Shown: piece by piece, positions 6,597 through 38,400 of the stretch
Layout of the letters: each line of letters starts with the position of its first letter
How positions within the stretch are numbered: position 1 is the first letter of the stretch
Origin: Panorpa germanica
Lineage: Eukaryota; Arthropoda; Insecta; Mecoptera; Panorpidae
Direction: 5' to 3'
NCBI GenBank assembly: GCA_963678705.1
Contig: OY783212.1
Span: forward strand, 3,224,001-3,288,000
Length of the DNA stretch: 64,000 nucleotides
The notes under the pieces: generated by a model
Told to the model about the DNA's origin: nothing
Databases searched by the model: none
Seen by the model: only the letters and a program-made list of their open reading frames with translations
Position numbers and translations under genes: made by a program

Positions 6597-8917
6597 TGGC
6601 AAAATCAGTGTTACAGTAAGTTTCTTTTGCATATACATATATTTCACAATTTATTATTTTTATTAGTATCGTAAAATGAGGTTATAAACTGACGTTTCTG
6701 GTACTATTCAATTACAATATATGTATTTACGAGTAAATAATTAATTACACACTATTGTTAATTGTATTTAATTTTTTAAATTACTCATAATTATTCTTAC
6801 AGTTTCTCAGACTGAATTATATAGTTTTGTTACGAATAAAATAATTTTGAGGGGTGGATAAGTTTTGTATTTACATAAACAAAAAATATTACATTTAGTA
6901 TTTGTTTCTCGTATTAAATACTTTACACATGACGTTCTTTGAATTTATTATTTGTTTTAAGCTCCCTTATAAGGGTTAAGATAAAACACATTTAAAAATG
7001 GACCATGAAAATAATAGAATTAGTAATCATTCCTAATTGTATTTAACTATTAATGATACAACTAAAAATACTTTTGTCAAATGCAATTAAAAACTATTAC
7101 AAACAGAAGTAAAATATAAATAAAAACAATGTAAAATGCAGACTCAATTCTTATTAGTAATAATTTTTATGTAGCACTTTAGAAATTTTTATGCCTCTCT
7201 ATCTTCAATTTCGTATAGAGTAATTTAGACCACAATTATAGAATAAATTGTGGATTCTTTTCAAATTTTTTAAATACTTTTTGATTCAGCTCACGTTCAT
7301 TCAGTTGTTGATGGCTTCAAGTTTGGATTAAATCACACTCAAAAATGTATTAATTTTTCAGAAAAACGGATGAATATGGGTTTGAAAGATCAGAAGACTT
7401 TGATTTTGAGCTTTACGAAGCATTTTTGTCAAAATACTTAAAAATTTTAGCAAATAGATCTAAAAAATGGGAAACACTATTAGGATCAGGTCGAACGTTG
7501 AAAAAAAATAGCACTCTTAAAAGATATGTCAGAAAAGGCATTCCAGGTACATTAATTTAATTTTTTTTTTAAACATGTTCATATTTAGTGTGTAGGACAG
7601 ATTATCACAAAGCTCTTTTGAAGCAATGTATTATTTTTCACTAGATTTCTTTTCAAATATAGCCTAATAAAATTTTCTAGGAGCGCACCGGGGCACAGTG
7701 TGGATGATAATTTCTGGAGCTCAGAATTTGAGTTTGCAAGCACCTGGTATTTATGAAAAACTGATACTGACTGATTTAGATGCTGAAATTGTAGATATTG
7801 TCAAAACAGATTTACCAAGAACTTTCCCAGACAATATATTTTTTAAAGATACTGCTCATCGCCAAGCTCAATTATTTAATATATTGGTGGCTTATGCTCA
7901 CAGTAATCGCGACGTAGGATATTGCCAGGGTCTCAATTATATCGCAGGTGAGATGTACTAATTAATATCGTCGAGACTGTATATTATTTTAAGGGTTATC
8001 TAAATTTTACATAAGCATCATTAAATTTAAACATCTTTTAGGTTTGTTGCTGCTTGTGACTAACAATGAGAAAATGTCATTTTGGCTTCTTAAAGTTATG
8101 GTAGAAGAAATTTTACCTCCATATTACACAAGAACAATGGACGGTCTTATTGTTGACATAGAGGTATTTGCTCAACTTGTGCAACTGAAAATGCCTGATG
8201 TTCACAAACATGTTTCAGATATGGGTAAACAAGAACCACTATTTGCATGATTTTTTTATATTAAAAATATTGTTTTTTTTTAATATTACATGATATATTT
8301 ATAATTGTGAATTGTATCTTTCCCCTTTTTATTTTTAGGTTTACCATGGCCTGTAATTTGTACAAAGTGGCTGGTATGTCTTTATGCCGAGGTCCTACCT
8401 ACGGAAACAGTATTGCGTATATGGGATAGTTTGTTTTATGAAGGATCTAAGGTACTAAGTCCTCTGAATTGATGAGATTAAAAGACTTATATAACACTTT
8501 CTATTGCGAAGATACAGAGAACATTTCTCCGATTATTCTATAATAATATAATCTTGTGAAAACGGTTACAAACAGTTCATAATTGTACTTACTTATAGGT
8601 ATTATTTCGAGTGGGGCTAACGCTTATTGGAATCCATCGAACTGAAATTTTAGAAAGTACAGATTTTTCAGCTTTAGCAGATTGCTTTCGTAACATGGTA
8701 AAGGGACGTGCAGTTCTACAGTGCCATGAATTTATGCAGGTAAATAAGGAATACATATTATAAAGTAAATATACATTTTATGAATGCAACTTTGTTACCA
8801 TTTTTATTTTATTTCCAGAGAATATTTAAAGTACCTGGATCTTTGTCTACAAATACAATAAATAATCTTCGATCGAAAATTACAAAAGAACGACTGGAAC
8901 AAACTAGTAATAGGTAG
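6597..8917 (+). CDS. GRTP1: TBC-domain Rab GTPase-activating protein (GRTP1/TBC1D6-like)
   Basis: Stimulates GTP hydrolysis by Rab GTPases in membrane traffic. Seven exons: 6597-6616, 7362-7546, 7681-7947, 8042-8224, 8339-8451, 8599-8739, 8819-8917 (TAG). They total 1008 nt, 335 aa, close to the vertebrate GRTP1 length. A short N-terminal stretch containing YGFERSEDFDF leads into a TBC domain covering nearly the rest. The arginine finger motif is intact (IVKTDLPR, Arg115), as is the glutamine finger (GYCQG, Gln151), so the GAP should be active. Later landmarks, GLPWPVICTKWL and ETVLRIWD, are typical of the family. The start is the ATG of a six-codon first exon, supported by phase closure with exon 2. 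A further 5' UTR exon cannot be excluded. The substrate Rab cannot be told from sequence. Confidence 0.95.
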
Positions 8918-11121: not shown

Positions 11122-14100
11122 ATGGCTGATAATGATTATTTATGTAAATATCGGCAATTTTTTGAGAATTTCGCAAACACTTTGGACCCTTCTGATCAAT
11201 TACCAGTAAAGGTAGCTGGTTACAACTTAACAGAAGAGGAACTTGCTGGAGATATAATTGATTGGACAGTGCAATATCTAACACAAAAGTAAGACTTGGT
11301 TACATTATATTAGGGTAGTGCTGTACAAAATAGATAACGAAGTAACTTGCTTAATTTATGTAGATTAATATTAGAGATATTAGATAACTATTACTTTTTC
11401 ATTTATTTGTAAGCGCTTGCATTGACCATAAATTTATTTATCAACTTATTTATAGGCAATGTCCAGCATCTCTTGTAGCTCCACTGGTGCAGAGGGTGTT
11501 GCTGGAAACGCGAACGCTCTATCGAAAACATCCTACAAATTGCGGTTTCAGATCAGCGGAAAATAGTAAAATTAATTAAAACTTAAATATTACATATATT
11601 TAATAATCAGTTTCGTTAACATAAGTTTTTTGTTACAGTATATCAACCGCTGAAACTGATGCAGTCTGTCGTATCAATTATTAATGATTTATGCTCGCGA
11701 TATTTGGATAATAGTATATTGGACACTCTGCCGGTTCCAAATGACTCTTTTCAACCACCGATGTGTTCATCAGCAGCCGTAAAAAATATCAGAAGAAAGA
11801 TGGAGGATCGACACGTTTGCATACCTGATTTTCACGGAATGTTTGACATTAAAGTTAGCTGTGTTCATTATACTTTATATATTTTATATACTTGACAGAT
11901 GCCAAAAGTTTCCGGCCTAGTTCTCACCTTTCGGAGCATAGTTATATGAGACACGTTGAGCGTCTACTGATATATAGGCTTTAATAAAGTAATTTTTTAT
12001 ACCGATACTGAGGCATGACATTGTTTTTATATCTTTTGTCGATGGTTTCTTAATTTTCAACAATTCAGCACCAAATGCCTTATTTCTCAACTTTTAAGAA
12101 AGATATTTAAGTGCTCCAGGTTTTGTATAATAAACGAACGATGTACTTTGGTTTTAGAATGAAATAAATAGCACTTGGAAAGATAAGACGTGTTTTATCT
12201 TTTACCCTGCAATCTTTTAGTTGTATTGTATACAGTTGCATGGTTGTTGCTCTTATATATTTTCTTCTAATGAACTTTTAAATTTTTCAATATGCGGATT
12301 TCTTCTTATATGTAACTTTATGAAGTAGAATAATAAACATAACAGTTGATTAATAAACACTATTACTCCGGTGCACTTTTTTAAAGATAGTTTAGTATCT
12401 TTTTTTATATCTAATGTTCTTGTTTTTCCTTATCTTAAGAAACACTGAAAAATTAAAATTTGGCGTAATATCTGATATTAGCATAATACAAATCATAATT
12501 TATTATTTCATGTATGTTAAAAATGAACAACTTCCAGGATTCTGGTCCCGCTAGTTATTATTGTGTCTTGGACGGTCATGCTGGCGTGGATGCTGCAACT
12601 TATGGGGCTTCACATCTACAGCAGTATTTAGCGGAAAGTAGTTTGTATCCCAGTGATCCTAAAGCTGCTTTAAGAGAAGCTTTTTTAAGAACAGATCATG
12701 CTTTCGTAGAAAAATGTCAAAGAGAGGTATATACATGCATATTCTTTCACTTATTAAAATATAAAATGTACTGATAACATTTTAATATATCATTATTGCA
12801 GAACCTTAGTAGTGGCACTACTGCAGTGGTTGCACTTTTAAGAGAAAATTGGCTCTATATTGGGTGGGTTGGTGACTCACAAGCTCTTCTTGTAAAACAA
12901 GGTCGCGTTATGCAAGTTGTACTACCTCATAAGCCGTCTAGAAAGGTAAAACTTGCCATTATATACATGTATTTGTTATATTTATTTATTGTTCTGCCTT
13001 TACGGTTTACTATCTATATTTATTTTACATTTCCTTTTATTAATTAAGCTGAATATTTAAATCCTTCCTTTTCAAAGATCCTCTCCCCTCTTGTTATCCT
13101 TATACCTCCTCCTCCTTCTGACTTCCGCTATTTATTTTCTTCCTTTTCTCTTTACTAATAACATTTCCTCCAAATTGACTTTGTAGAATTCCTAATCGAA
13201 AAAATAATTATAATAATATTATTAATCGTTGTTTAATTTAATAATATATTGTATATTCTTTTAGGACGAAAAGGAACGTATAGAGGATCTCGGAGGTTGT
13301 GTCATGTTTTGGGGTACCTGGAGAGTTAGTGGACAATTAGCCGTTAGTCGTGCAATAGGTATATTTCATATTTGATAGCAAATAAGTTATTCCTCGCTAC
13401 TCCAGAAGATATAATAGTGGGCATTACACTATTTTATTCTCATTTTAGGGGACTGTGAATATAAACCTTACGTAACGGGAGAGCCCGATATTGTAGCCGT
13501 TCCCCTCGATGGTCAGGAAGACTTTTTAATTTTAGCGTGCGATGGATTGTGGGATTTTGTAACAGAGGATCAAGCAGCTTTAGCTGTTTACCGACAAATT
13601 GTGGAGCATGCAGGTATTATTTTCGATATTACATTAGAATATTTTAAACTTGGTTATATCATTTAGATTCTGTTAGCCTTCGTATTATTAAATTACGGAC
13701 GTATAGTTATTAAAGTTAAATTGACATGCCGAAAAACTCATGTTGTCGTGCGTGACAAAAGAATTGTATACACCAATTTTAAAACGTAAATATTATATAA
13801 TGATAACATTATATATAAAAAGTTATGCTAATATTTAAATTTCGTAACATGAAAATATGCAAACACAGAAAATATAGCGCCGGTCCGATAAACGAACCCG
13901 AAGACACAGCAGTCTAGTGTCAATGCACAGAGCTGCATTACGTTGTGAACAATAATTGAATTTATATTAAATTGCACTGTATATTGATACGACTATCAAA
14001 ACCTCTAATATCAAATTATTTTTATTCAATTCGCAATAAGTTATTAACGATTGAAGTAGTAATTTTTGTCCCTTTACTAATCAAAAAGGGGTAAATTTGT

Positions 14101-17100
14101 AAAAAAAAAGATTGAGTAATTGACGTCATTTTCCTCCTTACATTCTTCCCACTACCATCGCTGTTAAACAAGAGAAATAAAAGACATGTAGAAAGCAACC
14201 TCATAGCGCTAGCAGCTGTTGCAGCTATCCATAAAGTTTTCATTTAATAACGTGATGTTCAACAATACAAATTCGATTGTTTATTAAATTCTATTAACTT
14301 CGTGACGTCAAGAAATATTCAAACTTTAATTAAATACATCTCCGTCAATCTTTAGATATTTAATAAAATAAAAACGCCTATATACAAAAATTAACCTATA
14401 TTTCAATAAACAATTAAAAAATCGATCCCTAAAAAATCAGTTTATAACGGGATGCTAAAAAAATAATTACACAAAATCAAAAATGTCGCCTGACTACCCT
14501 GATTTCTCCAAATTTAGTTTTTTTTCCAATTCAGGTCTGGGCAGACATTTAAAAAATGTGGTTGTTGGTAATCAAAATTATATATATCCAGTGTAAATAT
14601 GAATAATCTTAGGCCTATGAGTTGCTATGTAAACATGAAAGAAGTTTGTATTTTATTTCAAATTTGAACGGGTATTATAAATTATTTCACATATACATTA
14701 CAAGGAAATATGAAGTGAAACTAAACTACGCCTTAATAAAAAACGTTTTTTTTTATTTTTGTTACTTATTCATCTGTGTAAGTTTATTGCCTTGTCCGAA
14801 TAAAAGTGAGTCACTGAATTTCTCACTGACGAGTTGCCAAGCATATAGTGTGCCTTGAGTCGAGTTTCAGCGTCCGAAACTACGCGCAATCCACATGCGA
14901 TGTTCTGTACATTGTACAGTGTATGAGTATGAGCAGTGTACAAACCCTATTGCCCCTCCCTTCATTGCCTTCCGTGTTATTACACGGAATGAACATTTCA
15001 ACCACATCCAAGACTTTCAATACAAGCACAGACAGTGATTATGACTCATTTTCATTCGCAATAACGCGTCGCTGTGATGGTGAAGATACGGTCTCACTAT
15101 TATTGTACATTTTGATATTTTTTTACTACTAGTCAGGACAAAAAATATTCTTAAAGGGTTTTTGGTTCATCCTCTTATTACAAAATATAAATTAATTTTG
15201 TAACGATATATAATATAAAATACTTGGGTGCTGTACTTCTCACACACAACTTCAACTACATTACGTTAATGCGTGAATTGTTCTTTGTGTTATTTGGGCA
15301 ACATGACATTTTTTCTCAGCTTAAGACTCTTTTTTGCAACTTTGCAAATTTGGTAATTACTACTAAGTAATATTACAGACTATTCCATCGTTTTATCCGA
15401 TTTCGGCTTAAACTCTGTACTGTGGAGAAATTATATATCTATAAACTGTATTAAAATGTTTAAATAATAATATAAATAAAATTATAATTAACTAAGATGT
15501 ACAGTGTAAGGATGGAGAGGGGGGATAAGATTGAGGTATAGGAAAATACTGTGCGAATGCACACCATCGAGTCGTCTTACATTTTAGGGTGCACACCAGG
15601 AGGGCGGTTTTCTTAATAGTGCAAGTGACGATCTTGCAGAGGCATGTCGCAGGGTGCTCTGTAGGTAAAGCTTGCAGTACTATTAAATATTTTATTTTAA
15701 AAATACACTAAATATATTAATATATTATATAATACTCTGTACTTAATGACGTTATCCTTGATAGTATTACATATTAAATAACATTCAATAAACATATTAA
15801 TTTGACAAACGGCAATATCAATTAGACATACAAATATCCATGACGTACTGTGACAACTATACAAATTTATCGAGTGATTGTTACATTTAATAAATTATAT
15901 ATTTATTATATATACTGTTTAACATATTTTGCACTTTTTGCAATCTGGAATGTTGAGCTCTGATAACGAGATTTTTGCATTGCTATTAAGAGCGTCATGA
16001 AAAGGGTGCGTTGGCCCTTTTTGTCCGTTGTTGCTTGATGTCAGTTCAATAATAAATAGTAATATGCTTGGACGCGCCCTTACTTTTTTTTGAGTCGAGG
16101 ATCACTGTATTGCTCCAACACGCCACCATTGCACGTTCATCATCCATCTCCGCACCACCCCCCTGGGACTGGATAATGTCTGTTGGGCCGGTGTGCGGCG
16201 TGCAGCGTGCGCTGTTCTGTCAAACGGCAACTGACGGCGACCAACCGCATCAGTCTACGGTTGAGTCAGTGGCAGAATTAAAACCAAACTATCGTCCATA
16301 GTTGAGCGTTGAGCGTTCACTTTGCAAGCTTGGTTATGCTAAATTATAAGATATTTTAAAACAAGTGCTAACGTATAAAACTAATTATTTACAATACTTT
16401 TACCTGTGACAAGATATAAATAATTTTATTTTATATGTGGATCTACTTCATTTGGATTTTGGGTGACAGACAATTTTAAATGTTGTATTAGGTATGAATA
16501 ATATTTTGTTATTTTCTTTAATAAATTAGTTTGTTTATTCCATAATACATACGATAAAGAACCTATTCATATTCCTAAAAAAATATACCATGTATCATGG
16601 ATGATTCATTTCTTTTTTAGAGCCGGTCTCTTTATTTCGCGTTAGGGGTTCATCAATTCAAGTTAATTAGTAATCTTAATTATATTATTATCCAGTAAAC
16701 ACAATTCTCTATCACTGACGTTTTATATTCGTCTAAACTACATAAATATTACGTAAATTCTACGATTATTATGCTGGGTATTGAATAACAATCGTGCAGG
16801 AAACACAATCGACTGTTTACAGTGGTTTACAGAAAATCATTAATACTTTTTTAATACAATTATTAATTTTTGCATTTTTTTTATAAGAATTCAATTTTTT
16901 TTTACTTCATTTGTTTTTGTTGTTATTTGTCTTTAACGCTATACAGTAATTTAATATAATAATAAAATAAATACATCCGAAGTTTGGATGTTGTTCAAAT
17001 ATGTAACAAATAATTATTAAAGGTATTATTTTATATAGATAATTATTATAAATAAATAACGTGACTTGTAGTTTATGACTTCTAGTAGACATTTTCAAGA

Positions 17101-20100
17101 GAAGAGTCTACTTTAGGGTACCGATACTCGTCTAGATATCTTCAGAGATGTTTTTAAAAGCCAAAGTTTTTATGAACCCGGTTTCATTATGATGTATGGT
17201 TTTCTTATAAGTGCATGGAGCTGATGTACCCGGCTTTGTCAGATTTTAATAATTGACAGGTGTGGCACTACTATAATTAAAACATTAATTGTTCTTAATC
17301 ATTGTATTTATATTTGAAATTACTTTAGTTTTCAATTCTAATTCCATTTCATCTCTATTTCATTTACATCTAGTTATAATTCTACTCGTTTGTGTATTGA
17401 CTTTTTTTATTGCCTTTGATGTCGGTATTTGTTGCACCCTGACCTCGTAATTCTAAAAGTAACTTTAAAAAGTATAGATGATTTTTAAACCTTATTTATA
17501 CTTGCTAAAGTTTCAAATCATATAGATTTAATCCAGTGTTTGCAAAATGAGATAAATTACTCCAAACGTGGTAAAAATAAAAATCTTTGAGGATCGTACA
17601 AATAATCTATTCTGTAACTTTCATGAATTAATTATTCTACTATCTATTACTTTTTTTGTTTCATTTTTAAAGTTCATTTATCATATACATATCGTATAAA
17701 CTACAATATTTGAAATTTAAGTATTTTAAGAGCACGTATTCTGCAGAACGAAGGTTTTTTTTTACTGGATAATATCGTTGCTAGCCAGGCCCTATGCAGG
17801 AAATCAGTTGTATCTAGTTACTATTGCCTGCCAAAATATATTTTATTTAGTTACAAAATGCCACAGAATTGTTCTTTCTATAACGGAACACGGTTCCGGG
17901 ATGTGCTGGCTTTTATTGCTTTTTTAATTATGTCATACATGCATATTTCTCCAAAAATGACGTATTGTGTAAAAATAAACTAACTGACTTATTAGCAGTA
18001 ATATGTAGCTGCAAGTTAAATGACATAGAAAACAATTTCACAGAACTTAATTTCTAAAGATCACAATCAAATCTGTTATCTCTTTTGGAGATATTTATAT
18101 TTTAATTTTTTTAAGGCGGGTTTAGTTTCTTTTTGTGAAGGAAGAACTTGTTTAGGAACCAACTGCGAAAACAAAAATTTAATTTTTTTTTTTTCATCAC
18201 TTCAGTTTCTGCAATTTGACGAAGAAACTGGTCATTTACGAAAGGATGCAATAGGAACAAGAAATTCCATTAGAAATAACGCAGCTGGAGAGTACACTGT
18301 TTTAGAACCCCCCTAAGTTTTGATCATAATTACAGTGAGGCACTTCACTTAATAAGCTCCAAATGCATGACCAACCTTCATCATTTGGAAAAACACTCTT
18401 GACTCCTTTTTTAAATTCTTTTTTTTTAGATTAATAAGAACGCTGAATGATGAATTTTTTAATATAACTAGAATTGAAAAACGTATTTTTTGGGTTAAAG
18501 TTCAATTATGTCATAACTGAAGTTTAACTGAAAATTGAAAAAACGGCACTTACGAAGATAACAATCTTGTTATAATATTAATCTTTATCATTTGCATTTT
18601 TTGCTGCCATGTCGTTAAGTTTAAGAAATTGTAATGTAATATTATGTACAACATTACTTTTTAGGAGAGAGTCGAGTAATTTGTTTCTGCAACATTTCTA
18701 TCTTTTGACTTGGACCGTTATTCGCGTCTTCAATCTTTCCCACCAGCTAGAAGTTATTAAACCTAACACAATGGAAGATAAAATTGTTAAAATTATCAAG
18801 TTGATGTTACATTTGTATATTCAATGTAGATGGAGATCTGCTTTGCTTTTGCGTCGTTTACGTTGCAACTTTCATTGAAACAATCGAACAATGGGAATTC
18901 TGGAGCATCGGACGGCTTTCTGAAACTGTAACACAATTGTAGGTAATCGCAAGACAAGAGCTATTGCAAGAGCATTGTTACAGTCGTTGATTTCTCTATA
19001 AAAATCATGCATTTAAACGTTTAACGTAGCTCAAACTAACACAGATTTAGGCCATGAACTTATCCACTCAAGCAAGCAGAGCGCAAAGCAAGCGGTACAT
19101 CGGTAGTCGTTACAAGGTACATTTACAGTATGTACTTCTATAAATTAATATTAAAATAATAAATACTCGTGTATTACGTATTCTATTCCTATCATCATAC
19201 CATCACACCATAGCACCATAACGCAGGCCGTGAAGCAAATTCATTATTTTTAATTTTCCTTTAATTTTTCTAATTAAAAAATAAATCATTTAAAGGTGTA
19301 TGAATATTTTAACGTTATGTGAGCGCATAGTTGTGATAAGATGTAATTAATTTTAATGATACGGGCTACGAATATTTTAATTTTCGCGAGTGGCGAATAC
19401 CTGGGCGCGGTCGTTTGGGATGGGCCGGGTTCATTTTTAGTCCTACTTTAATTTTTAATATGATAATTATTTTTAAAACGAAACTAATGCATTTGTTTTA
19501 GTATATGCTTTTAGAAGGGTAAATGTATTTTTTTAAACTTATTCAAATTAATTTATTAAAAATCGGTTGATTGTACGATCCTACATACCGTATTCGATAA
19601 TAAAGTTTGAAATATGTGGTAAAAAATTTAAATTAATAGGAATAGTTATGATATTCACTGATTTTTTTAAAAATTATTTAACGTTCGGCCTATTTCCGAT
19701 GCTAAGTCCTATTACCGCCGATCTATACCCTCATCGATTTAAAAATTGTAATTTAGATAAACATGACGAACTTGAAAATTTGAGGCGCCGTACAAACTTG
19801 CATCCCGTTGGCTAAAAATCTGGAGATAGTGAAGACTCATAAAGAAAATATTCTACAACTTTCAAAGAAATCCAATTTCAATTTATTCAGGTCTACTACG
19901 AGAGTTTTATTGAATTTGTCTACTCTCTTTAATCTCTCTTTAATGAACTGCTTAATACTTTTCTTTAATTTTTTATTGTCAGTTATAGAGTGAATTAAAA
20001 TCGACAAAAATCGAAAATTCAATAAAATAAATATTCAATACTTAAATTAAATTTTATCTTTAAATTTCACACTTCCTAGAATGACGAAATATTTTTTCAG

Positions 20101-23100
20101 ATATTTATACAGATATTACACATAAAATACATGTTTTTATCATTTGCATTTTTTTCTAGAGTGATTTATCTTTGGTATTTGTCATAAGAACTATATTGAC
20201 CTTCGATAATCCGGTAAGACCGAGGACCCCAACGGGCCGAATTAAGGAGGGGTTTCTATATATCGAATATAATATATACTTTTAATATTACTGACTTGGG
20301 TTCCATTAGTTGTTATGAAATTCTGCAGCTTCTCGGATTCAATATAATTTGCAATATATAAGAGGGGTAATATTCCAAAAATTTAGCGAACTTCTACTGT
20401 AATGACTTTAGGATAGGCTAATAGATTTCTTTCTAAAATATGGAAAGGAGTCGAGTGTTTCGAAATATTCAAAACTTATTGATAGAAACATATTTCTTAA
20501 ACTGGAGGTTGGGTCACTAAATATATTAGGGAGCGGTAGCGTAAAGTTAGCAATCGTGATAGCAACAAGAAATACAAATTTGTCATTAAGGCACTTGCAT
20601 TAGTAGTTTACTATTGAAATCCAGTTATGAAAAAAACTGTTTTATTCATAAAATAAAATTAGTTTATCTACAATACAATGTAAAAATGTGGCTGCTTTCT
20701 ATAAATTTATAAGCTCTGAATATTTTAATTGCTCTGTAACGCGGTCAGTGACTTCAAGGTATAATCACTTTTTTAATAAAATATTATAATTAGGTACCAC
20801 ATATGAAACAATTTATCCACGAAAAATTTCATTTTATGTTCATATAGTTTAGGTTTTGTATTTTGTTGTACTACTCTTAAAATAATGTGTCCGAAATGAA
20901 CGAAAATTATAAGCAGACATCTGCAAGCCAGCAGCGTTCGGCTCGGTGTTGTATGCGATCCGGTGTGCGATGAAATCATCTTCAGCAACATTTGTTGTGG
21001 ATCCGTGCTCCGGGTCCGTGTCCGCGTTCGCGTTCGCGTTGTAACCGACAGTTGTTGTTACTACTGTACAAAATTAGTGAAATGGTTAAATTAATAACGG
21101 CCATTTTTAATTCAATTAATCTGTGGCTTGCTTCATAACTGCGTTTCACTATTATCTTTCTAACAGAATGAACCAATTTTTTTTATTGAAGGTACACATT
21201 AATGTGCAAATTAAATTTTTCACATTTAATAAATGCTTTTAATGGGGAAACGTCCTCAGAATGTGCCTAATTAATATGTTAACGCCACAATATCGAAAAA
21301 GACAAAAGGAATCCCGTTTTTGTATTCTGGACAGAATATATTTTGTTTATTTTAGTCTAATTTATATGCAAACGTTGATTAATGCTAAATTTCGGTAAAT
21401 AACGTTACGTAAAAATTAGTACGGTAAATATAGTGCATGAATTAACATTTTCTTTAGAGGGATTATTTTATCTTTAATACTTTCTTTACGGGAAATTTTG
21501 TTATAGAATATTTTATGCTGTATTACCCCACAATTTTTATTTTTACTGCAGTTAGCAGACTTCTCTTAAACAAATTATACAATTTAAAAAAAATTACAAA
21601 TTTAGCCTTATGTTGTATCATTTTACTATAAAAATAACGCAAGCGTTAACTGAATTTGACTTATGCGACATATGACTGACACAGCTAAAGCTATCTTGAA
21701 TGTAAAATGATACTATAGCCTAAGGATAAATGAGGACTTTCTATAATATCATAATTAAAAAACTATTTGTTCACCTTTTGTTAATGAAAACCTTCGTACG
21801 AAGAAAGCAATTCCTTCATTATACGTCTCTACCGGTAGGGCGGTAGGTAGGGGTCAGTCAGTGCCGGTACTTGATTTACAATAACTGGTACATTTGATCG
21901 AACCACGCGGGCAAGACAACCCAGTGTATTTACTTAGAGCTGTGCACGTGCTCAGCATGTTTATAAAACATTTAGCTTTCTTATGGCGTTATGTTTGCCA
22001 ACGTGATTGCCGTATTGGATGGATGACATAAACTTAGTTGCCATTTTGGGCAAATTAAATGAAAAAGACGGGAAGTACGAGTATCATACGCGGTCATATT
22101 TTCATTAAAGTGCTCTGAGGTTTCATTTCAATAGCATGAGTCATGTTTATTGTTTTACTGTAAGTGAAATCATGGTACAAGATAAGAAGTGTATGTACTG
22201 AAAATCTCTGTAAACAATTCTTTGTTCTAAGAAAAAATATTTATTCATTACATCGATGGTTCCCAATTAGTGCTTCGCATTTTTAATATTCGCAATTATA
22301 ATATATTTGTTCATAATAAAGATGCTCTCCCTTCTACAGAATCAGGAAAATGTATTTCCGTTCGAAATGGTTTATGAAAACTGCTTGTACGAAGTATATA
22401 GTCATAAATAGGAAAAGTATATTTCCGCTAAACACAAAACATGAATTAGTATACTGTAAATATGTACATGAGACGTTTTGATGAAACGAAACTTTTAAGA
22501 ATTGCTGTTTTAGATATCCATTCATTCTGAATTTCCACATTGTTTGATCAATTGTATCAATATAATCAATCGCCGTGTGGCAGCGTTTCTCCAAAACAAC
22601 TTACAAAACTCATCTGGGACCCTATTCCTGAGTCTTGCGAGCAATGGTCGTGATCGAACAGATATGATTTATATAAGAGAAACATTTTACGAATCACTTA
22701 TAAAAGACTATTTCTAAACTATAATAATAATTAATAATAAAATTCAGGAATAGTACAGAAATACTCTTTTAAAAGTGATTCGTAAAATGTTTCAGTTATA
22801 TAAATTAGATTTGTTCGATCACGATCATTACTCGCAAAACTCAGAAATACGGGCACTGTTTATATTTTTGTAAGTGAAAATAAACTCGTTGCAATAATTT
22901 TCTTTAACATTGTTCTCAACAAACGTGAACATGGCATGAGCCACTTATATTTCATATTCATTTTTATCCCTGATAATTTCTAAACCACACACATGCTTGC
23001 CCGTACGAAATACCAACAGCTTTAACAACTCAGGATGTTTTGTTACACATACAAATTTCGACTGCAGCAAACAGTCCATATTAATGTTGAAGTGTTTATT

Positions 23101-26100
23101 TAGTAATTTTCTAAATCATCAATAACCATAAATGGCGACAAACACTTAGTATAATTATTTTGCAACAATCGCTACTTTTATATTATTCTCGTCAAGCTGC
23201 TGGATATTAATCAGAAAATCCCCGAACGTTCATTCGTTTTTCCACAATCGAAAATAATCTTTGCTCAGTTACTTACTGTATTATAGGATATCTGATAACG
23301 CGCGTATCTAATGGTAGAAGCTTAAATATGGTATGTGCAACAAAATTAACATCATTTAATTATTAGTGAGGTTTGGAAAAATTCTACCAAGAGAAAATAA
23401 CAACTAGAGTAACAAAATAGTCTGATGATTTGTTATTAGTAAACATTAAAAGCATTGCCTTTATATAAGTAAATAATGATATATAGATTAGATTACTGTA
23501 AAAGTAAAGAATTTAAATTGAATTTTAACGTGTAAGTAATATTCGTACACTGTTGGTGCGTTATGCATCACAGTGACATCATCACGATTTTTAAATGAGA
23601 CGTACTTAATTTTACATACAGTTCTAGAAAGAGATAAGAGTGTAGAAATAGTTGTATACCATAAATGTGCATATATGTATATATTGAACATTATGCGTAA
23701 GTCTTCTACCTTACTCAAAAAACACTTGAGCATAAAGCGTGTACGCTAAACATTATAACGCTAGAATTAATTTAATCTTTGATGTATAACCATAAGTATG
23801 CGTTTAATTGAAATATCCTCGCAGCTTGAACTAAACCAAGCCTTTTTCATTTTTTTAAAATACTTTTTATGTGTCATGAACCTTGGGCGTGGTTTTGTCG
23901 CAATATTTTGACATCTCATTATGTTTTTAATTAAACAAATATAAAAGCTATATCATAAATTCGGCCACGCTTACTTGTTTCTAGGTCTGCGACAAAACGA
24001 TTACAGGCTCATTATAGTAAACTACGAGTTTAAAAAGTTATAAATATTGGTATAACAATAACACATAACATACAGAGGCGCCACATACGATTTATTTATT
24101 TTGAATAATATTATAAATAATTAGATTACAATATTTAATAGTTTATTTATATTTTTTTTCAGAAGATCCTAGCATTATTTCTCTGCATCTGGTCCAGCTC
24201 GCTAAACAGCTCGGGAGCACAGATAATATATCAGTAATTATTGTCTTCCTGAAAGATCCTAAAATATTATCGAAAGAACCGCTACCAGTCGCGATGGATT
24301 TAAATATAATGGACAGATCCAACAGCAACAATCAAACTTCTGACATTAACACTAACGAGCTGAATGCAGAAGTTCCGTTATCGTTCACGAGTCAGCTGTT
24401 TGACAATGAAACAGATGTTAAAAATCAAAACGAAGGGACTATCGGCACAGGCATCGAAGAACCTTATCTAAATCAAGATGCCAATCAGTGTCTGAGCCCC
24501 GATTTGAATCTGGAGTTAAGTAATGGCAAGAATATGAGTCTTGGAGTTTTTGAGGGCTACATTGGACCAGAAACCGATATTGATACAGTGGACGATGTAC
24601 AAATGCTTACCGAGGAAATTAAAGACAGAGTTGCAAACGATGTTTTGACGAAATCGAACGAAGTTTTTGACGAAATCAACGAAATGATAAATGTAGGCGA
24701 AAGTGCATTGTCTGGTACTGAAGCAGGTCAGTTTTTCTTTATATTTATTGAGATAGCACAAATATTGCCTTCACCGTAATCATTAATGAAATTAAATTAA
24801 TGCCCTTTTTGTAGAAATATTTTACTAGTATTCGAGCATATAAAAACAACTTATTTAAGAATGTGTGGTTATTTGTTTTACGTATGATAGGGGAGCTAAA
24901 AATAACGTTCTACTTATAGATGTGATTCTGTTGTCAGTCTAATTTAGTATAGGTACGAGTATATTTATTTCCTGCAATGTCATATTGTTTTATCAAGAAT
25001 TCAATACTATAAAAATATTTACTTTCGGAGCATCAATAACTTATAACAATTCAATAGTAATATTAAATATATGTTACGCAGAATTAGTGTACTTGTTGTT
25101 TAATTTGCAAAATAGAGAATTTCTTTGCCTTCTTCGTGAAATAAGCTTAATACTTAGTTAAAATAAATAGCTAATAGGGGTTACGCCAACTTTAAGAACT
25201 TTCCATACTTTTACAAGTCAGTAGCAGTGTACACTCAAGAGCTAATCATCAGATTAAGTTCAAATTTTGAACGAGAACGCAAAACAAATTTTTAACGGAG
25301 TGGATCAAGCTCTGCACTAGCTTTTGTAAATAAAATTATATTTCTGCACCTCCTTAGAGCCAAAATAGAATTTATAGCAGTACTTTTTTATAAATTGAGT
25401 TTAATATTTTGATTTGAATTTTCGTAGAACTCGTAGTTTCCAAAGAGAAAGTGTTATTTTTTTTAATAGTTTTTCTTAAAGTTTAGACGAATGTTGCTTT
25501 ACATTTATTTTACAATACTCTCCTTCTGATTCAATTTTCCGGACTTCCCCTTAAGAATAATACAATTAAAAAAAACTTTGGCTCTTGACTGTATTTGTCG
25601 CTAGCTAGAGGGGTATGAATATGTCTACAATTCCAAGTTCTAGTATTTCATAAATAAATTATTACAGTGCTCTTGCAATTTAGACCCCCTAGACGCCTAA
25701 AATTATAAAAACGGTTTGTCATTTTTTAAATTTTCATAAAACATTTTGAGGTGTCTGCGTACGATACCATATAATACTTTTATACCAAGTTATACTAATT
25801 AAATCTTATAATTTGTTGAAAGTAATACATATCTACTATTATAAGATTTGAAATGTAATCTGTAACTGCGCCGTTTTCAAATTTGGTGGTTCTACTGGCC
25901 TCTTACAGCATCACCACTATTTTCTCGAAGGCCACGGCCATCGCCCGACATCATATCTTGCCATCTCGCTCTTTCGTTGCATCAACACATGCTTATTATA
26001 TTATGCGATGCGATTGAGCGACTGTATTAGGCTGGTTTGGTCTTTGAGTTTATTCCGGGTATTTATCTAGATGTAGAGGTTCAGCTCATTTTAATATTAG

Positions 26101-29100
26101 GGTATTCGTTTGAGATTTAAGATAAATTTTAAATAACCAATATTTTCCTTAATATTTCTTTTCTTAATTATAAAATAAGGTGTGAATTGTATAGAAAATA
26201 TAGCTGCCATTTGCAATCAATTCTTGTAGTGGGTGCAACATTCAAAATAACGATTGAATTTATATAAAAACATTTTGTGGCATGGTATGTACAAATTGTT
26301 ACTACATATGTTAAAATAATATTTAAAAAAAATACATTTTACAATTAGGTATTCAATATTTATATATTTTTTCTTTTAGTTATGTATGAATTTATATATA
26401 TATATATATATTGAAATATGTGAACTGGTTTACAGCCGCGTTATAAATAAGCTTCTGTCAATAAATATACTGCCCCATTATAAGTTAATTTTATTGTAAA
26501 AATACAACATTAATTTACTGGTTTTTGATATTAATTATAGAATTACAATATATCTAAGGAAATACAAGTAAAATATAAATTGTTATCAAATTGGAGAAAT
26601 GGTAAATGTGCTTTTTTTAAACCAGATGTAAATAAAATGCTCCTGGAACTTTCTAAAACATAGAATATATATAAAAAATATAATGGTACAATTGTGAAAT
26701 TTGTTTACAGTTTTCATTAATAAATGTCATTCAAAATATATTTTCGTAAGTGTAACTGAAAAAGATAATTAAATGAGCGAACACCGTTGTAAACCTTATC
26801 TACTCTTTCAAATTATTACATTAATTTGTAATTTATTATGTATCGAGAAATATTTTTATGCTTTAAATAATAATGCATAAATCTTACATATTTTGAAATA
26901 TTTACAACTGGGTATTTTCTAAACCAATAGTTGCATATATCCCCAAATTGTTTGTGGGTCGTTGAATTCAATACGAAAAAACGCGTGTTGAGGTATTCAT
27001 AGATTTCTGCAAAAATATCATGTAGTATACTTAATTGCCTTAACCTTAGGTTTGGAAAAAATGATTAATTATTTTGTAATTTGCTACAAATATTTCAAAT
27101 TATCGCACAGAATAAATAATTTGTGTGAATTTTGTTGATTATGAAATATTTAAATAGTAGTCTCGTTTAGTTTTGAATATACCAACTATATATGTTGGAT
27201 TATGCGAGTCATTAAGACTTTGTAAACCTTAAGTATATAGTGGTAATTAAGCTCCGACAACAATTATTTTTATGTATTATAATTTTTTTTTGTGCGTTTT
27301 CACCTTATAATCTCCATTACATCTCATCTCATTCTAACTTTATTTAAAAATAAATGTAGCCACTTGACACACTATGCTTAAATATAAGTAATACGTAAAT
27401 GTCTTTAGTCCTTGACTAAGTGTCATTTGTCTTTATGCTTTCTACTTTTTTATACCTCCTTTCGTTTGCGCTTCATCTCTGCTACCAAAAAATGAATGTA
27501 TTTTCTTTCTTTTAGTGTTGGACAATGTAGCTGACAGTGATTCAGAGGACGAGTGGAATTATTACACAGGAAACCAGACTACGCAGAGCAACGAAAAGGA
27601 ATCTATTCTTGAGCCTGTAATTATAGTTTGATTTGCAAATTTTTATTTCAAAATCATTTTTTTTCCATTCACTTCCTTTCTAAACTATAACGTATTCTTT
27701 AGTCATCTGAAAAAGAAATTGAAGATATGTCTTCTCAACTGAACCCAGACGCCGCTCCATTTGTTCCGGTATCGCCCAGCGTGTCTCCTGTTCGACCCCC
27801 TATATTAGATCATATTATTATGGGTAACTAGAAAAGATTTTATCAATTTATTACATTACAAAAAATACAAGGGATAATTATATTACATTATATAAATGTG
27901 TTTTAGATGATGTGGTGATAGCTCAAAGTCCGCGAAAGGTTTCTGCGGCGCCAATGGAAAATTTTCCTGTTCCAACTCTACACGAATTTGAAGATGAAAT
28001 CTCTAGTAAACCGGGTGATCTTGAAGTTGATTTAGATATGTTAAGACCTGAATCGTCACATAGTGTAAATTACTCATATTGCTATTTTTGGTACATTTTG
28101 GACATAAGTATTTTTCCCAAATGCATTAAAAACTTTTATTTTTAGGGAAGTTCAAATCAAGAAATGAATTTGAAGGAAACGAGCCATGGAGATGAAAAAC
28201 TTGAAAATGGATTACTGGAAACCGAATGTTCTACTAACTTTAATGTTGTTTCACAGCTGAATCCTTATATTGAAAGTTTTAAACCTCAGGATCCAATGTC
28301 TATGTCGTTTTATCAAGATAAAAATGACCCTTCGGATAATCCGTTTGATGACGAATTATGTCAAATAAAAAATAAAAACCCCTTCGATTTAAATGCAGTG
28401 CAATTAATTCCGGATAGTGATGAAGAGATTGGTGTTAAAGATTCTTTCGACGATGTTGTAAAATATGAGGGTTTGAAAGAAAACGAAATGTTCAGTAACA
28501 ATGTTGAAGGTGATTTAATGTCACCAGTCAATGAACTTGCATCTCCCGACGACAATCAAGGAGTAGACCTCCTAAAACATATAAATGAAATATCAAACAT
28601 CACTACAAATATTTCGGAAGAGGTTGCTGCTAATATTATTTCTCCTATTGATGATTTTAATGATGTTTCTACAGAGCATAACGTGGACTTAATTGCTCCT
28701 ATAGAACAAGACGTTAATGTTGATCTATCATCAATAACAAAAGAAATACAATCTGCCCAAAATGACATTATCTCTTTCATAAACGAAGCTGTATCCGTTA
28801 ATAATGAATTCAATGAAAATGATGAACACGTTGCTCCAATTAGTGATACAGTTAAGGAAAGTCTTTTATCTATGAATGAATTGAATGCACTAGAAGCAAA
28901 CCTGGAACACTTATCTGAAGGTGTGTCTGAATTATCAAATAATATGTCGTTCACAGAATTAACAAACCATAATACAGAAATTGCTAGTGATATTGAGAAT
29001 GAGTTAACGTCTTCGAGAGATAAAGATTTATCACCGCTGGTTGAAAACTTGCAGAATTTACTGATTAATGAGGCTGTAGAAAATATTCCTATTGATGGTT

Positions 29101-31515
29101 TAGATATAGAAAACTTAAACCCAACTCTTAAAGAAAATGTTGAACTAGAAGTTCTTGCGGACACTAACAGTTTCCTGCCTAGTGATGACAAATTAAAAGA
29201 ATCTGTTCTGCCTGCATCACCGATAGAAGATACACTTATTACTCAACTTAAAGAAACAGAGATAAATAGTGTATCGCCAACACCAGACAGCCAATGCAAA
29301 TTTGAAAATGTTGATCAAGATCCTTTAGGATATCCTCCTGCGGAACAAAAAATTGAGTCATTTGAATCTACAGGATATACCGATGAACATTGTTTTGAGA
29401 TCGAGTTACCACAAGTGTGTAATAATCAGGCAATTGTGGAAGCTACTCAAAAAATGACGGAAGAAGTTACATCTTTGTTGCAGGAAGTCTCTCAGCCGTC
29501 TAAAGAACTTTTTGAAAATAATGTTAGTGAAATAATTGACAGCGAAGGATATTTGGATAACGCTGTTTGTAATAATCCTATAAAATCGAATGAAATTCAT
29601 TTAGAAGAAAAACTTAATGAAAATGCAAATAATTTTAAATCTTGTGAAGCGGAAGAGAGCGTTAATAAGCTTGCAGACGCTATTGAACAAGTACTTGATA
29701 CTCATGTCGTTGATTGTGTACCAGAGCCAGCTAAAGAGTCTCCTGTAGAAATTTTAAAAGAAGTCAGTGACTCTCTTGAACAAAAACTTGAAGAACCTAA
29801 AGTGACTAACGTTGATATAGTTGAGGAAATTTCTAAAACTATGCTTGTTACCGAGAAAGAAGTGCCTGCAAAGAAAATTGATAAGCCAACTGTAAAGAAA
29901 AGTAGCATATCGGCTGTCAACAAGAAACCAATTAGTAAGACTACTACTACTGCACCTAAAACTACAACAGTTCCTGCAAAACCTACTACAACCGTTAAAA
30001 GAACTGTACCTAGTTTAAGTTCGAAGACAACTACTGTTACTAAAACAACTACTGATAAAATTGGAACGAGAACATCTAGTCTAACAGCTAAATCTACGGT
30101 AGGTGTGAAGGCACCTTCAGCAAGATCACCTGCAACTCTCAGGGCTTCTACTACATCCAATTCAACATCAGATGTCAAGCTCCGATTATCTTCCGGAGCT
30201 GCTTCTTCCCCTAGATCAACGACTTCTAAAACCACCAGCTCGCCTAGAACAGTTTCGTCTGTGAAAGTTGCATCAACAACAACTTCAAGTTTAGCAAAAC
30301 CTTCCGCAGAAAAGAAACCTTTAACTAGGGCATCCTTAACGAATGGTGCAACTGAAAAAACAGCCCTAAAGAAAACTAATGTTTCTCTCAGTGCACCTAA
30401 ACCAACATCGATCAACAAGACTGGATCCACAACGAAACCACCAACTAGACCTTCTACTGCTCCAACCGTTAAAACAACCGTGCCTCCCAGGTCAGTAAAA
30501 CTCCTTCCAAGTAAAACTATTATAGCTCTATGGTAATCCTACCACAGGTCTTTTTATGTTAAAAAATATATTTATTACAGAGTACCTTTAACGAAGCCCC
30601 GTGTATCATCTGCTGCAGACAAAGTAATGAAAAACACAACAAATTTAGCCGCCAAATCATCAATAAAAGCAACATCGGTTACTGCACCTAGAACAACTTC
30701 CATGAACAGTAGCACTTTGCGTAAAACTGAAACAAAGGTATTTCATTTTTAGATAAATTTCAATAAACGCCAGGGACTATTGTGAAGCGTTTTACTTGTC
30801 TGTTCAAATTTTCGACACAAAATTATAGCAATTACATATTCATTAATTAACCCTTTTTCGTTTTAAGTCCGGGTAATACACGAGAAAGCAGTTCTGTGGT
30901 TTATATTAAAGAAAACTAATGTTTGATCATATACACCGGCTAAACCGGAGTTATATAATATTATATTAACTCTTGCTATTTATCGAAGTTTAATATTGTT
31001 CTGTTACATTGTGTTTATATAAATATTTATATTAATATTTTCTTTACTGATATATTTATTTAATATGTAAAACATTATATAATCTGCATAAAAAATATTA
31101 TTTACGTCAAAAAACGTAAATTTATAGCAAAAGTTTAATTTTTTAAAATAGATTGTATTAGCCTACAGATTTTTATATAAAAGGTAAACTTTTTTCTGTT
31201 AAATAATAAAAATAAATTTTAGTTGTATCTTTTTTAATATTATAGACCAGCGCTGGAAGTAAACCAATTGCAAAGACTTCAACTCTTCAAAAGCTAAAAC
31301 CTACTTCTGAAAAAACAGTATCTAGAACTGTGACAAAAACCACTACCACAAAAACAGCAATCATTAGACCAACGAAAGCATCAGTGATACAAAATGGTGA
31401 CACCAAGATTATTGTGAAAGAAGAGATAACATTTACCAAGGAAATTGAACCGCTTAATCCGAACCCGATAGTGCAAGATACTACACTAATACTTATCGAT
31501 TCTTCCACCGACTAA
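11122..31515 (+). CDS. PP2C-family phosphatase (PPM1E/PPM1F, POPX type) with a long PAM2-bearing tail
   Basis: Metal-dependent Ser/Thr phosphatase. Family members dephosphorylate CaM kinases and PAK. Exons: 11122-11288, 11456-11565, 11639-11853, 12538-12726, 12802-12945, 13265-13358, 13449-13613, 24163-24726, 27516-27616, 27703-27823, 27907-28064, 28146-30490, 30581-30737, 31246-31515. They total 4800 nt, 1599 aa, phases all closing. Residues 1-140 are the helical N-terminus typical of PPM1F. The catalytic domain (about 141-391) has intact motifs: RRKMED (144-149), DGHAG (176-180), GDSQ, AVSRAIGD, ACDGLWD (336-342) and TDN (381-383). Exon 8 encodes both the last catalytic strand and the start of the tail, so the fusion is not an annotation join. 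The tail has an acidic part, a perfect PAM2 motif ([12 protein letters not shown], 594-605), NPF motifs, and a Thr/Ser/Lys-rich basic C-terminus (about 1250-1599). Human PPM1E/F are far shorter. Confidence 0.9.
14320..14450. mobile_element. Relic of family A MITE arm
   Basis: The segment TCTCCGTCAATCTTTAGATA with the following AATAAAA..ACGCC..CAATAAACAATT..AAAATCG order matches the outer 130 bp of the copies at 37965-38525 and 53883-54554. No second end is recognisable, so this is a truncated fragment within the phosphatase intron. Confidence 0.6.
15588..15664 (+). CDS. Candidate exon inside the phosphatase intron
   Basis: A TTTTAG acceptor is followed by 25 open codons with non-AT-driven composition (…[18 protein letters not shown]…) and a TAG|GTAAAG donor. 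It is read from phase 0, which does not fit the phase-1 donor of the preceding phosphatase exon (the phase-compatible frame has a stop). If real it belongs to an alternative transcript start or to a nested gene. I do not recognise the peptide. Confidence 0.3.
18206..18316 (+). CDS. Candidate terminal exon inside the phosphatase intron
   Basis: A long T-tract ending ACTTCAG precedes 36 open codons and a TAA at 18314-18316. The peptide ([19 protein letters not shown]…) is balanced and hydrophilic, unlike translated AT-rich intron. It could be a nested gene's last exon or a coding relic. A frame this short would stay open by chance fairly often, so support is modest. Confidence 0.28.
   Translation, partial: FLQFDEETGHLRKDAIGTRNSIRNNAAGEYTVLEPP
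22623..22849. mobile_element. Foldback MITE (227 bp) in the phosphatase intron
   Basis: Two arms of about 95 bp are near-perfect reverse complements. The left contains GGTCGTGATCGAAC and ACATTTTACGAATCACTT. The right contains AAGTGATTCGTAAAATGT and GTTCGATCACGATC. A loop of about 45 bp made of AATAAT lies between them. No coding capacity. The arms make this a strong potential hairpin in the pre-mRNA. Confidence 0.85.
27745..27793 (+). other. Segment encoding the PAM2 motif within phosphatase exon 10
   Basis: Part of exon 27703-27823. The encoded [12 protein letters not shown] matches the PAM2 consensus (S/T-x-L-N-P-x-A-x-x-F-x-P), which binds the MLLE domain of cytoplasmic poly(A)-binding protein in Paip1/2, Tob, ataxin-2 and others. 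The key Leu and Phe are both present. It lies in an otherwise disordered acidic region, as functional PAM2 motifs usually do. Confidence 0.8.
30847..31202. repeat. Dispersed repeat related to the TTAA-flanked MITE at 52579
   Basis: The central part (about 30977-31095) shares a long, diverged match with 52758-52875, including TTTATCGAAGTTTAA, TTCTGTTA and ACATTATATAAT. TTAACCC at 30847-30853 and TTAA near 31199 may be its ends. It fills most of the intron before the last phosphatase exon. Confidence 0.55.
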
Positions 31516-35428: not shown

Positions 35429-38400
35429 ATGAATTACCAGTATTCATCATCCGTACCAGAGAGTAGATCATATTTCGATGATGGGTTTACACCTCCTGGT
35501 TCACCGTACAGCCGAAGAAGATGGTGGCGACGCGGAGAAGATAATCACCAGAGAGAAATGAATAATGAAATAGAATTAAATACCCAAAGTATTAATCGTT
35601 CTGCCGACAACTTGCACAAAATAGAAGATTATGAAAATCTACTGGAGCAGGACGCTCACTCCAGTAATGGAGACAACGCCGTGAACTTGGCACTGCCTGT
35701 CGAGGTAAAGATTGTGACGTCACTTCCGTAATGTAGTGCATCTTTTAAAATGGTTGTAGTTGAAGAATAGTTTAATTAGTCATAACACATCACTCAATAA
35801 GTTCGTAAGATATATATAGAATTTTTAGATTGTGCCAACCTTCAAATGATGTGTGATGATATGTGTCAAAATTTCATTACATTTAGACCATTAGTTTACG
35901 AGTTACAGGAAGTTTGTCAGACAATGTCACAACCGTCACAGGATCTGCTAACTAACGTGAAGGAAAAATATACCAGGAAGAAAGAATCTAATTTGTGTGT
36001 GTATTGTCTACGCCGGTTATAAAACTTTTGTATATTTCTAGGTTAAGTCAAAACATAAACGCTCTTTCATTCCTGGAAACAGAGGCGTGCGAACAAGGCT
36101 TCCAAAAAGAGCAATAACCAAAACGGGGAAAAGAAATGTACATGTCGTAAATGCGCCGCACAGGTCTTTGCGGTTTATGAAAGACATCGTCACAACGCTG
36201 GTCAGTGAAATTATATAAAAAGCGGAAGTAAAGGCTGTGCATTAGTCATAAAATATTTTTATTACACCGATCCAAATGGGCTTGTGTCTTCATTTTTTAG
36301 TGGTCGATTTTCCAATTGTTGATTGAAATTGATGTAAATAAATGTGTATTGGCGTGTTTATTTTATTAAATATCTAAATATTGACGGAGATATAGCAATT
36401 AAGAATTTGAATTGCAGTTTTACCGCTAGAGATGGTCGGCCATATTTGTATGACGTGAAATGCATTTTAACGTCAATTATTTATTGAGTAGGTCAGTGCT
36501 GTGGTAATGTTTTGTAGCTGTTGGTAGTCGAAATAATCAAGTCAAATGAAAGAATAATAAGTTTTTATTTTATTTAACCCTGCTAAGGCAGACATAATAT
36601 TGGAATTTTATTGTTTCTTGAAATAGCTGTAAATAATATTTGATATTTTGATATATAAATACATATAGCAGATATTTATGAGCTGTAAGGTTGGCAGCGG
36701 TTGTGATGCCACATGTATTTGGAATGTGTACAACGTTGAATCCCTTTAATAATTAAAGAGACAAAATGACTTTTTTTATTGTTAATATCTCTTAACATAT
36801 AAGAAGTTATTAAAAAATAATTGAGCATTTGAGGTTCTAGTAACCCACTTTATTAATATATAGTACACTTTTATAGAAATTAAGACATAGGACACAAGCC
36901 CATTAATGTATAAAACGAACAAAACAAATCGCGTGCTTTCGGGTGTTTGATTCTTCTTAGATTTCATTTCTAGATTGACGAGCAATGGCGATATACGCTG
37001 CTGGTGTTTGCATTGAGCTTCTTTGTGTGCTGGGTTGGTTTCGCGTTACTGTGGTGGCTGGTTGCCAGCGCCCATGGTGACCTGGTGTTTGATGAGAAGG
37101 GTACTCGAAAAGGAGATGGTGATAGGCCTTGTGTAGAAGGTGCAACGAACTTCGCAGGATTTTTATTACTCAGTATTGAAACTCAGGTAAATAGAGTTGT
37201 TACGTTGTCATCCTTTACTAATTTTCTACTGTGCCTTTTAATCTTATACTTATACATATATTAGTTTCATATGCAACATTATAGAATCTCGCAATAGAAA
37301 AATATAAATTGAGTTCAATCCGAGCGCCTAGTAAACAGGCAACTAAAGTTGCGTTAAAAAAGATCAAATAAATATGTAATCTATATAGTAATAAAATATA
37401 TTAACTACTTTATTTAACTTTCATCCTGTATTATTTAAGTATGCATTCCATTTTAAATAAAGAAGTTGTCTTTTTTCTTCAGGTGTCCATTGGATTTGGG
37501 CTGAGATACCCCAACGAAGATTGCCCGGAAGCTATATTTTTAATGATTATGCAAATTATTTCCGGTATATGTATAGAAGGTGCCATGGTAGGCATTGTGT
37601 ATGCTAAAATGATCAGACCGGCCAAAACAACTGTGGATGTTCTATTCAGCAAAATGGCCTTGGTAACGTTTCTTCTAATTATTTGTATGGCTTCATATTT
37701 ATATTAAATTTCTCCGGTAAAGGCTTACTTATTGTGGGGACTACTGATGGGATGTACTCCTAGGTTTGCCAACGAGATGGACTACTGTGCCTCATGTTCA
37801 GAATCTGCGACCCTCGACAGAGCCACATCATCGGGACTGAGGTAAAGGCGTATTGGATGGAGGCAAGAACATCTGGTGAAGGTAATAATATTAGGCCACT
37901 GCTTATAAAATGTTCGATTCCAAATCAAAACTTTAGCGTATTACCTCAAGAAAAATAAAATATAATGGGCTTGTTTCCTATGTCTTAATTTCTATAAAAG
38001 TGTACTATATATTGATAAAGTGGGTTACTAGAACCTCAAATGTTCAATTATTTTTTAATAACTCCTTATATGTTAAGAGATTAATTATTAAAGGGATTCA
38101 ATGTTGTACACATTCCAAATGCATGTGACATCACAACCGCTGCCAACCTTACAGCTCATAAATCTCTACTATATGTATTTATATATCAAAATATCAAATA
38201 TTATTTACAGCTATTTCAAGGAACAATAAAATTCGAATATTATGTCTGCCTTAGCAGGGTTAAATAAAATAAAAACTTATTATTCTTTGACATGACTTGA
38301 TATTTCGACTACCAACAGCTACAAAAAATTACCATAGCACTGACCTACTCAACAAATAACTGACATTAAAATGCATTTCACGTCATACAAATATGGCCGA

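Follow-up and report, generated by a model that had tools for sequence, protein, structure and literature searches.

A POPX-type protein phosphatase apparently fused to a Map205-like tail with a PAM2 motif and a putative Polo-docking element

The window analysed here is a 64-kb stretch of DNA, whose plus strand carries, at 11122..31515, a reading frame of 14 exons separated by 13 GT-AG introns, all in phase (4800 nt, 1599 residues). It starts with the ATG at 11122, and its stop codon ends at 31515. Exons 1-4 (11122-11288, 11456-11565, 11639-11853 and 12538-12726, plus strand) and exons 5-7 (12802-12945, 13265-13358 and 13449-13613, plus strand) are joined in phase at GT-AG boundaries, and together (11122..13613) they encode an N-terminal region and most of a PP2C catalytic domain (PF00481). 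Exon 8 (24163..24726, plus strand, as are all exons that follow) supplies in one frame the last strand of this domain (16 residues) and about 155 acidic residues of the tail. The next exon, exon 9 (27516..27616), is also acidic and is the first clearly coding-like one past exon 8. It ends in a weak donor of 6.0 bits, and reading of the sequence points to a possible alternative, unscored, nine bases downstream. Exon 10 (27703..27823) contains a PAM2 motif and exon 11 (27907..28064) an element of the type by which Map205 binds Polo. Exon 12 (28146..30490) comprises an acidic stretch and then the beginning of a basic part rich in Ser, Thr, Pro and Lys, which continues through exon 13 (30581..30737) and ends with the stop codon in exon 14 (31246..31515). 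The sequence-only reading had proposed one continuous in-phase gene, and the 14 exons, with GT-AG introns and 1599 codons plus a stop, bear out a continuous reading frame. It is confirmed that exons 1-14 form one reading frame with a complete PP2C domain and one canonical PAM2.

Pieces of neighbouring genes were recognised with Pfam elsewhere in the window, namely an M16 peptidase (3788-4282, minus strand), a TBC RabGAP (7671-7961, plus strand), an inward-rectifier potassium channel (37405-37707, plus strand) and a kelch-repeat protein (43947-44492, minus strand). On the minus strand, 56403-57689 is a single open frame of 428 codons with C2H2 zinc fingers near the C-terminal end. Pfam gave no family for the pieces at 2829-3110, 39921-40310 and 45664-46311, and Rfam at gathering scores gave no match in the window. 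As for repeats, a sequence of approximately 120 bp is found in four places and in both orientations, at 14317-14440 in intron 7 and at 36292-36412, 39205-39328 and 54418-54538, the last three being 79.5-82% identical to the intron 7 copy; it resembles a small mobile element that has become dispersed. Intron 7 also harbours an inverted repeat (22605-22867), with arms of 118 nt that are 82% complementary and lie 27 nt apart.

The PF00481 match spans residues 137-384 (E-value 6.6e-66) and covers profile positions 5-255 of 255, which indicates a complete domain. MEDRH, LDGHAG, CDGLWDF and STDNIS, which we take to be the metal-site motifs of PP2C enzymes, are all present in the translated region. 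Compared with human PPM1F using phmmer, the first 420 residues yield 286 bits and 156 identities over 393 aligned positions (40%), and the likeness takes in the N-terminal region that precedes the PP2C domain. In the PDB, the best match of the phosphatase part is the CaMKP of Caenorhabditis elegans (4jnd, 119.3 bits), followed by a plant PP2C (118.7 bits) and PPM1A (102 bits), so that the PDB by itself does not split the subfamilies. Beyond Pfam, the NCBIfam collection returned only bacterial PP2C models, far under their cut-offs. Assignment of the enzyme to the POPX-type (PPM1E/F/FEM-2) metal-dependent phosphatases holds on this likeness, with the caveat that the decisive comparison was pairwise, with a human PPM1F sequence entered by hand. 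An intact PPM1E/F catalytic domain had been claimed beforehand, in agreement with the full-length profile match and the PPM1F alignment. Presumably, CG10376 is the PPM1E/F-type gene of flies; the sources consulted on it do not name its human PPM1E/F counterpart. Another candidate orthologue, Drosophila Pp2C1, was rejected because a wing-screen table pairs it with PPM1D (PMC8664455).

The PAM2 motif (27733..27768, plus strand) corresponds to the 12 residues 594-605 and was identified both by its pattern and by its profile. It fits xxLNxxAxxFxP, and nothing else in the 64-kb window, read in all six frames, matches L[NS]..A..[FWY].P. The Pfam PAM2 profile (PF07145) matches residues 592-605 with 24.6 bits in a piece of 191 residues, over the gathering score of 20 bits, and with 19.7 bits, slightly under it, in a piece of 800 residues. 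As the motif is short and probably lies in a disordered region, a chance match has to be considered, all the more so since shuffling the 1205-residue tail 20,000 times produced the loose pattern 38 times and the longer piece falls short of the Pfam cut-off. However, the strict core L[NS]P.A..F.P arose only once in the same 20,000 shuffles, and the 191-residue piece exceeds the gathering score; we consider a chance match very unlikely. The prior description of a tail of about 1,200 residues with a full PAM2 match is hence upheld by Pfam, the pattern scan and the shuffles. A peptide of 29 residues around the PAM2, used alone, found no match in the PDB. Scans of two of eight sets of viral contigs and one of two sets of genome contigs, together with a phage tblastn search, all in collections of viral, prokaryotic and phage records, yielded no relative. 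Another string with LNP in exon 12 (28251-28286, plus strand; residues 712-723) is weakly PAM2-like over 12 residues, but as a second PAM2 it was rejected, having no Pfam PAM2 match even at an E-value of 10.

Approximately 20 residues past the PAM2, from about residue 623, begins a stretch that aligns with Map205. When exons 9-11 were searched against the PDB, the only match with an E-value of at most 10 was chain C of 4j7b, the Polo-binding peptide of Drosophila Map205 (E-value 0.017), and the tail up to residue 800, from exons 8-12, again had this chain as its best match (0.086). As controls, the reversed exons 9-11 query gave 0.69 with an unrelated protein, and residues 801-1599 gave 0.16 at best with an unrelated enzyme. 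In view of this second control, the E-value of the 4j7b match is weak on its own, and because it is modest (0.017-0.086) the case for the element rests on position-by-position agreement. In Map205, M293, I296 and V298 contact the YKK pocket of the Polo-box domain, F304 its cryptic pocket, and E314-L315-E316 makes the phosphomimetic pincer contact (PMC13161223). These residues are matched at identical spacing by M640, F643, V645, F651 and D661-L662-E663, the changes being I to F and E to D, both conservative. The CDK site SPRK is kept as well, S631 (at 27927) being the counterpart of Map205 S283, with a one-residue gap in the alignment between this site and the Met contact. The BLOSUM62 local score against the Map205 peptide is 69, to be compared with a maximum of 57 when the whole tail was shuffled 3000 times and of 51 when exons 9-11 were shuffled equally often. 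The contact pattern itself appeared in 2 of 20,000 tail shuffles and, with the SP site included, in none of 20,000; these counts are partly post hoc, as the residue classes were broadened after the alignment had been seen, a choice that does not affect the alignment-score shuffles. Judging from this agreement, the exon 11 element is homologous to the Polo-kinase-binding element of Drosophila Map205, and it is this match that makes the gene look insect-like.

In flies, Map205 is described as binding the Polo-box domain and keeping Polo closed and inhibited on microtubules, from which CDK phosphorylation of S283 frees the kinase, a step reversed by PP2A-Tws (PMC11682627). No human orthologue of Map205 is reported to have been identified (PMC13161223). 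As for the rest of the tail, residues 691-1248 form an acidic stretch with a net charge of -93, and the last 351 residues, rich in Ser, Thr, Pro and Lys, are basic, with a net charge of +46; this basic end has no domain match in Pfam. By composition only, this order of acidic and basic parts is consistent with a microtubule-associated protein. Because the tail holds a Polo-docking element of the Map205 type together with the CDK site, the PAM2 would appear to belong to the Map205-like region and not to characterise PPM1E/F phosphatases in general. The locus should consequently be read not as a phosphatase that docks on PABP but as a POPX-type phosphatase with an apparently fused, Map205-like tail that would dock Polo and carries a PAM2.

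A single gene, with or without extra internal starts, is fairly probable (roughly two in three), and we favour the inclusion of exons 8 and 9 in one mRNA, as phase and coding signal suggest. It might be instead that the locus holds two adjacent genes on the same strand: a POPX-type phosphatase would stop after exon 8, and a Map205 homologue, its first exon short or non-coding, would begin in intron 8. The PAM2 would then be Map205's alone. Flies presumably have Map205 and the PPM1E/F-type gene as separate genes, and the free-standing state of Map205 speaks for such an arrangement. Intron 8 also contains a GC/CpG-rich patch (25851..26100) that might be the promoter of a separate downstream gene, and 13 AATAAA or ATTAAA sites occur in 24701-27520, the number expected for AT-rich DNA. 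However, exon 8 is coding right up to a good donor (8.7 bits, with a matrix that includes this donor): it scores +73.5 bits in frame and -90.0 and -75.9 bits in the other frames, with codon models trained on the same gene without the tested exon. The 16 codons from this donor to the next stop score -5 with a model trained on all exons, and are therefore not coding-like. An in-frame ATG is missing from exon 9 and first occurs in exon 10, shortly before the PAM2.

The search for other exons in the intervening DNA also argues against two genes. From 24790 to exon 9 there are 112 AG acceptors; their highest coding score in the required frame, 7.4 bits, belongs to a poor acceptor (-6.4), and none exceeds 11.2 when the scores are combined. 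By comparison, exon 9 reaches 19.5 for coding and 29.9 combined, having been excluded from training in these acceptor scans. Over all scored acceptors it ranks only 78th of 331, because acceptors within the long exon 12 score higher. Nine first-exon candidates (at least 25 nt) lie ahead of exon 9, and the best of them has 4.2 coding bits, scored, like the sliding windows, with the model trained on all exons. No intervening acceptor or first exon thus approaches exon 9 in coding score, although very short first or last exons could escape the scan, since short exons cannot score high in coding. Altogether we regard two genes as unlikely, without being far-fetched.

It is also conceivable that the locus makes both products, the full phosphatase fusion together with a Map205-like protein that comprises only 1194 residues of tail, would start at M406, the in-frame ATG of exon 8 (24294, plus strand), and would be translated from an mRNA with an internal promoter in intron 7. 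This intron contains GC/CpG-rich patches at 16001..16400, a possible internal promoter for a tail-only mRNA, and at 20851-21200, and the SPRK serine would be residue 226 of the tail-only protein, to be compared with 283 in Map205. The intron 7 patches may nevertheless be enhancers or unrelated to transcription of the tail, and we find the production of both proteins improbable. More generally, the GC/CpG-rich patches of introns 7 and 8 are possible internal promoters or enhancers; no second copy of them is present within the 64-kb window, and the intron 7 patch had no match in a plasmid search. Other windows of intron 7, such as 19251-19850 and 21751-22100, have many CpG at lower GC content.

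Taking these elements together, the explanation that we put forward is a single gene that would encode a POPX-type phosphatase followed by a long Map205-like, microtubule-associated and Polo-inhibiting tail, with the PAM2 directly upstream of the Polo element; we give it about an even chance of being correct. Because the same element and CDK site as in Map205 are present, a Polo sink on microtubules is the simplest proposal for how such a protein might work. From its composition, the basic C-terminal end would hold the protein on microtubules. The conserved contacts suggest that the exon 11 element might bind the Polo-box domain in the manner of Map205 and keep Polo closed. In mitosis, CDK phosphorylation of the SPRK serine would free Polo, as reported for S283 of fly Map205. 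It is tempting to speculate that the PP2C domain, in cis, then strips the phosphate from SPRK or from the T-loop of Polo and so resets the sink at mitotic exit, a role whose counterpart at S283 in flies is attributed to PP2A-Tws (PMC11682627). Mammalian POPX2 substrates include the microtubule-linked KIF3A (PMC7547661), and the C-terminal tail of PPM1E is described as regulatory and cut off by proteolysis (PMC3749536). Lastly, the PAM2 might tie the complex to a protein with an MLLE domain, either PABP or Hyd/UBR5.

As to which of these partners is used, it had been proposed that the PAM2 recruits the enzyme to PABP, where it would dephosphorylate mRNP components. The genuine PAM2 and the POPX-type enzyme with its complete PP2C domain stand from that proposal. 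As the main reading, recruitment to PABP is not supported, since the PAM2 is located in the Map205-like region, in a tail with a Map205-type Polo element and CDK site, and since it leaves this element and the basic tail unexplained. mRNP dephosphorylation is only one of several options, and as the leading explanation we deem it a weak contender. Hyd/UBR5 would be as good a candidate partner as PABP. If the PAM2 worked with the MLLE domain of Hyd/UBR5 and not with PABP, the Polo sink might be tied to the ubiquitination or turnover of mitotic regulators, and this would be compatible with every gene model considered, be it the fusion, two genes or both products. It has been reported that UBR5 carries an MLLE domain (PMC2854688), that BUB1 and BUB1beta (BUBR1) are UBR5 associates with a PAM2 motif (PMC5592244), and that BUB1, and BUBR1 by an AlphaFold model, are also ligands of the Polo-box domain (PMC13161223). 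The best-known PAM2 peptides are nevertheless PABP ligands, and our support for Hyd/UBR5 as the exclusive partner is tentative, somewhat short of even.

A phosphatase, a PAM2 and a Map205-type Polo element in one frame are a combination of which we found no description in the literature searched. Among the matches listed, in a search of largely open-access literature, PAM2 was not described together with PPM1E/F, and within the same limits PAM2, MLLE or PABP occurred with Map205 only in a shared gene table. It might even be that Map205 descends from the C-terminal end of a POPX/FEM-2-type phosphatase and that the undivided form is kept here, as one protein that docks Polo on microtubules, contains a phosphatase able to reset its own CDK switch and reaches PABP or Hyd/UBR5 via the PAM2. 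In flies, the halves would afterwards have been separated or rearranged, a scenario that we advance as a rather doubtful conjecture. If the single-gene reading is true, it would provide an evolutionary origin for Map205, bring a phosphatase in cis to an established Polo switch under CDK control and add an MLLE-docking motif to a Polo inhibitor. It would also connect the microtubule storage of a cell-cycle kinase with poly(A) mRNPs or Hyd/UBR5. With two genes, too, a PAM2 that adjoins the Polo-binding element of a Map205 homologue represents a testable link, apparently undescribed in the literature searched.

Several known systems share parts of this arrangement. Paip1/2, Tob, ataxin-2, PAN3 and eRF3 likewise have a canonical PAM2 in an otherwise domain-free region, but here a phosphatase and a Polo-binding element are found in the same frame as the PAM2. 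BUB1 and BUBR1 differ in being checkpoint proteins of the kinase or pseudokinase type, and we claim no sequence relation between them and the tail. What they share with it is the pairing of Polo-box binding with PAM2 motifs in reported UBR5 associates (PMC13161223, PMC5592244). PPM1E and PPM1F (POPX1/2, CaMKP) and FEM-2 of C. elegans resemble the present enzyme in their N-terminal region and PP2C domain. PPM1E likewise has a long regulatory C-terminal tail (PMC3749536). Unlike in these phosphatases, the tail here is approximately 1200 residues long, with a Polo element and a PAM2. As for Drosophila Map205, a 205-kDa microtubule-associated protein, the acidic-then-basic layout found here fits that kind of protein, and its Polo-binding element has the same CDK site SPRK, hydrophobic contacts, Phe and acidic-Leu-Glu tripeptide with matching spacing, as compared with the 4J7B peptide only. 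Unlike in the fly protein, this element trails a PP2C phosphatase in one frame.
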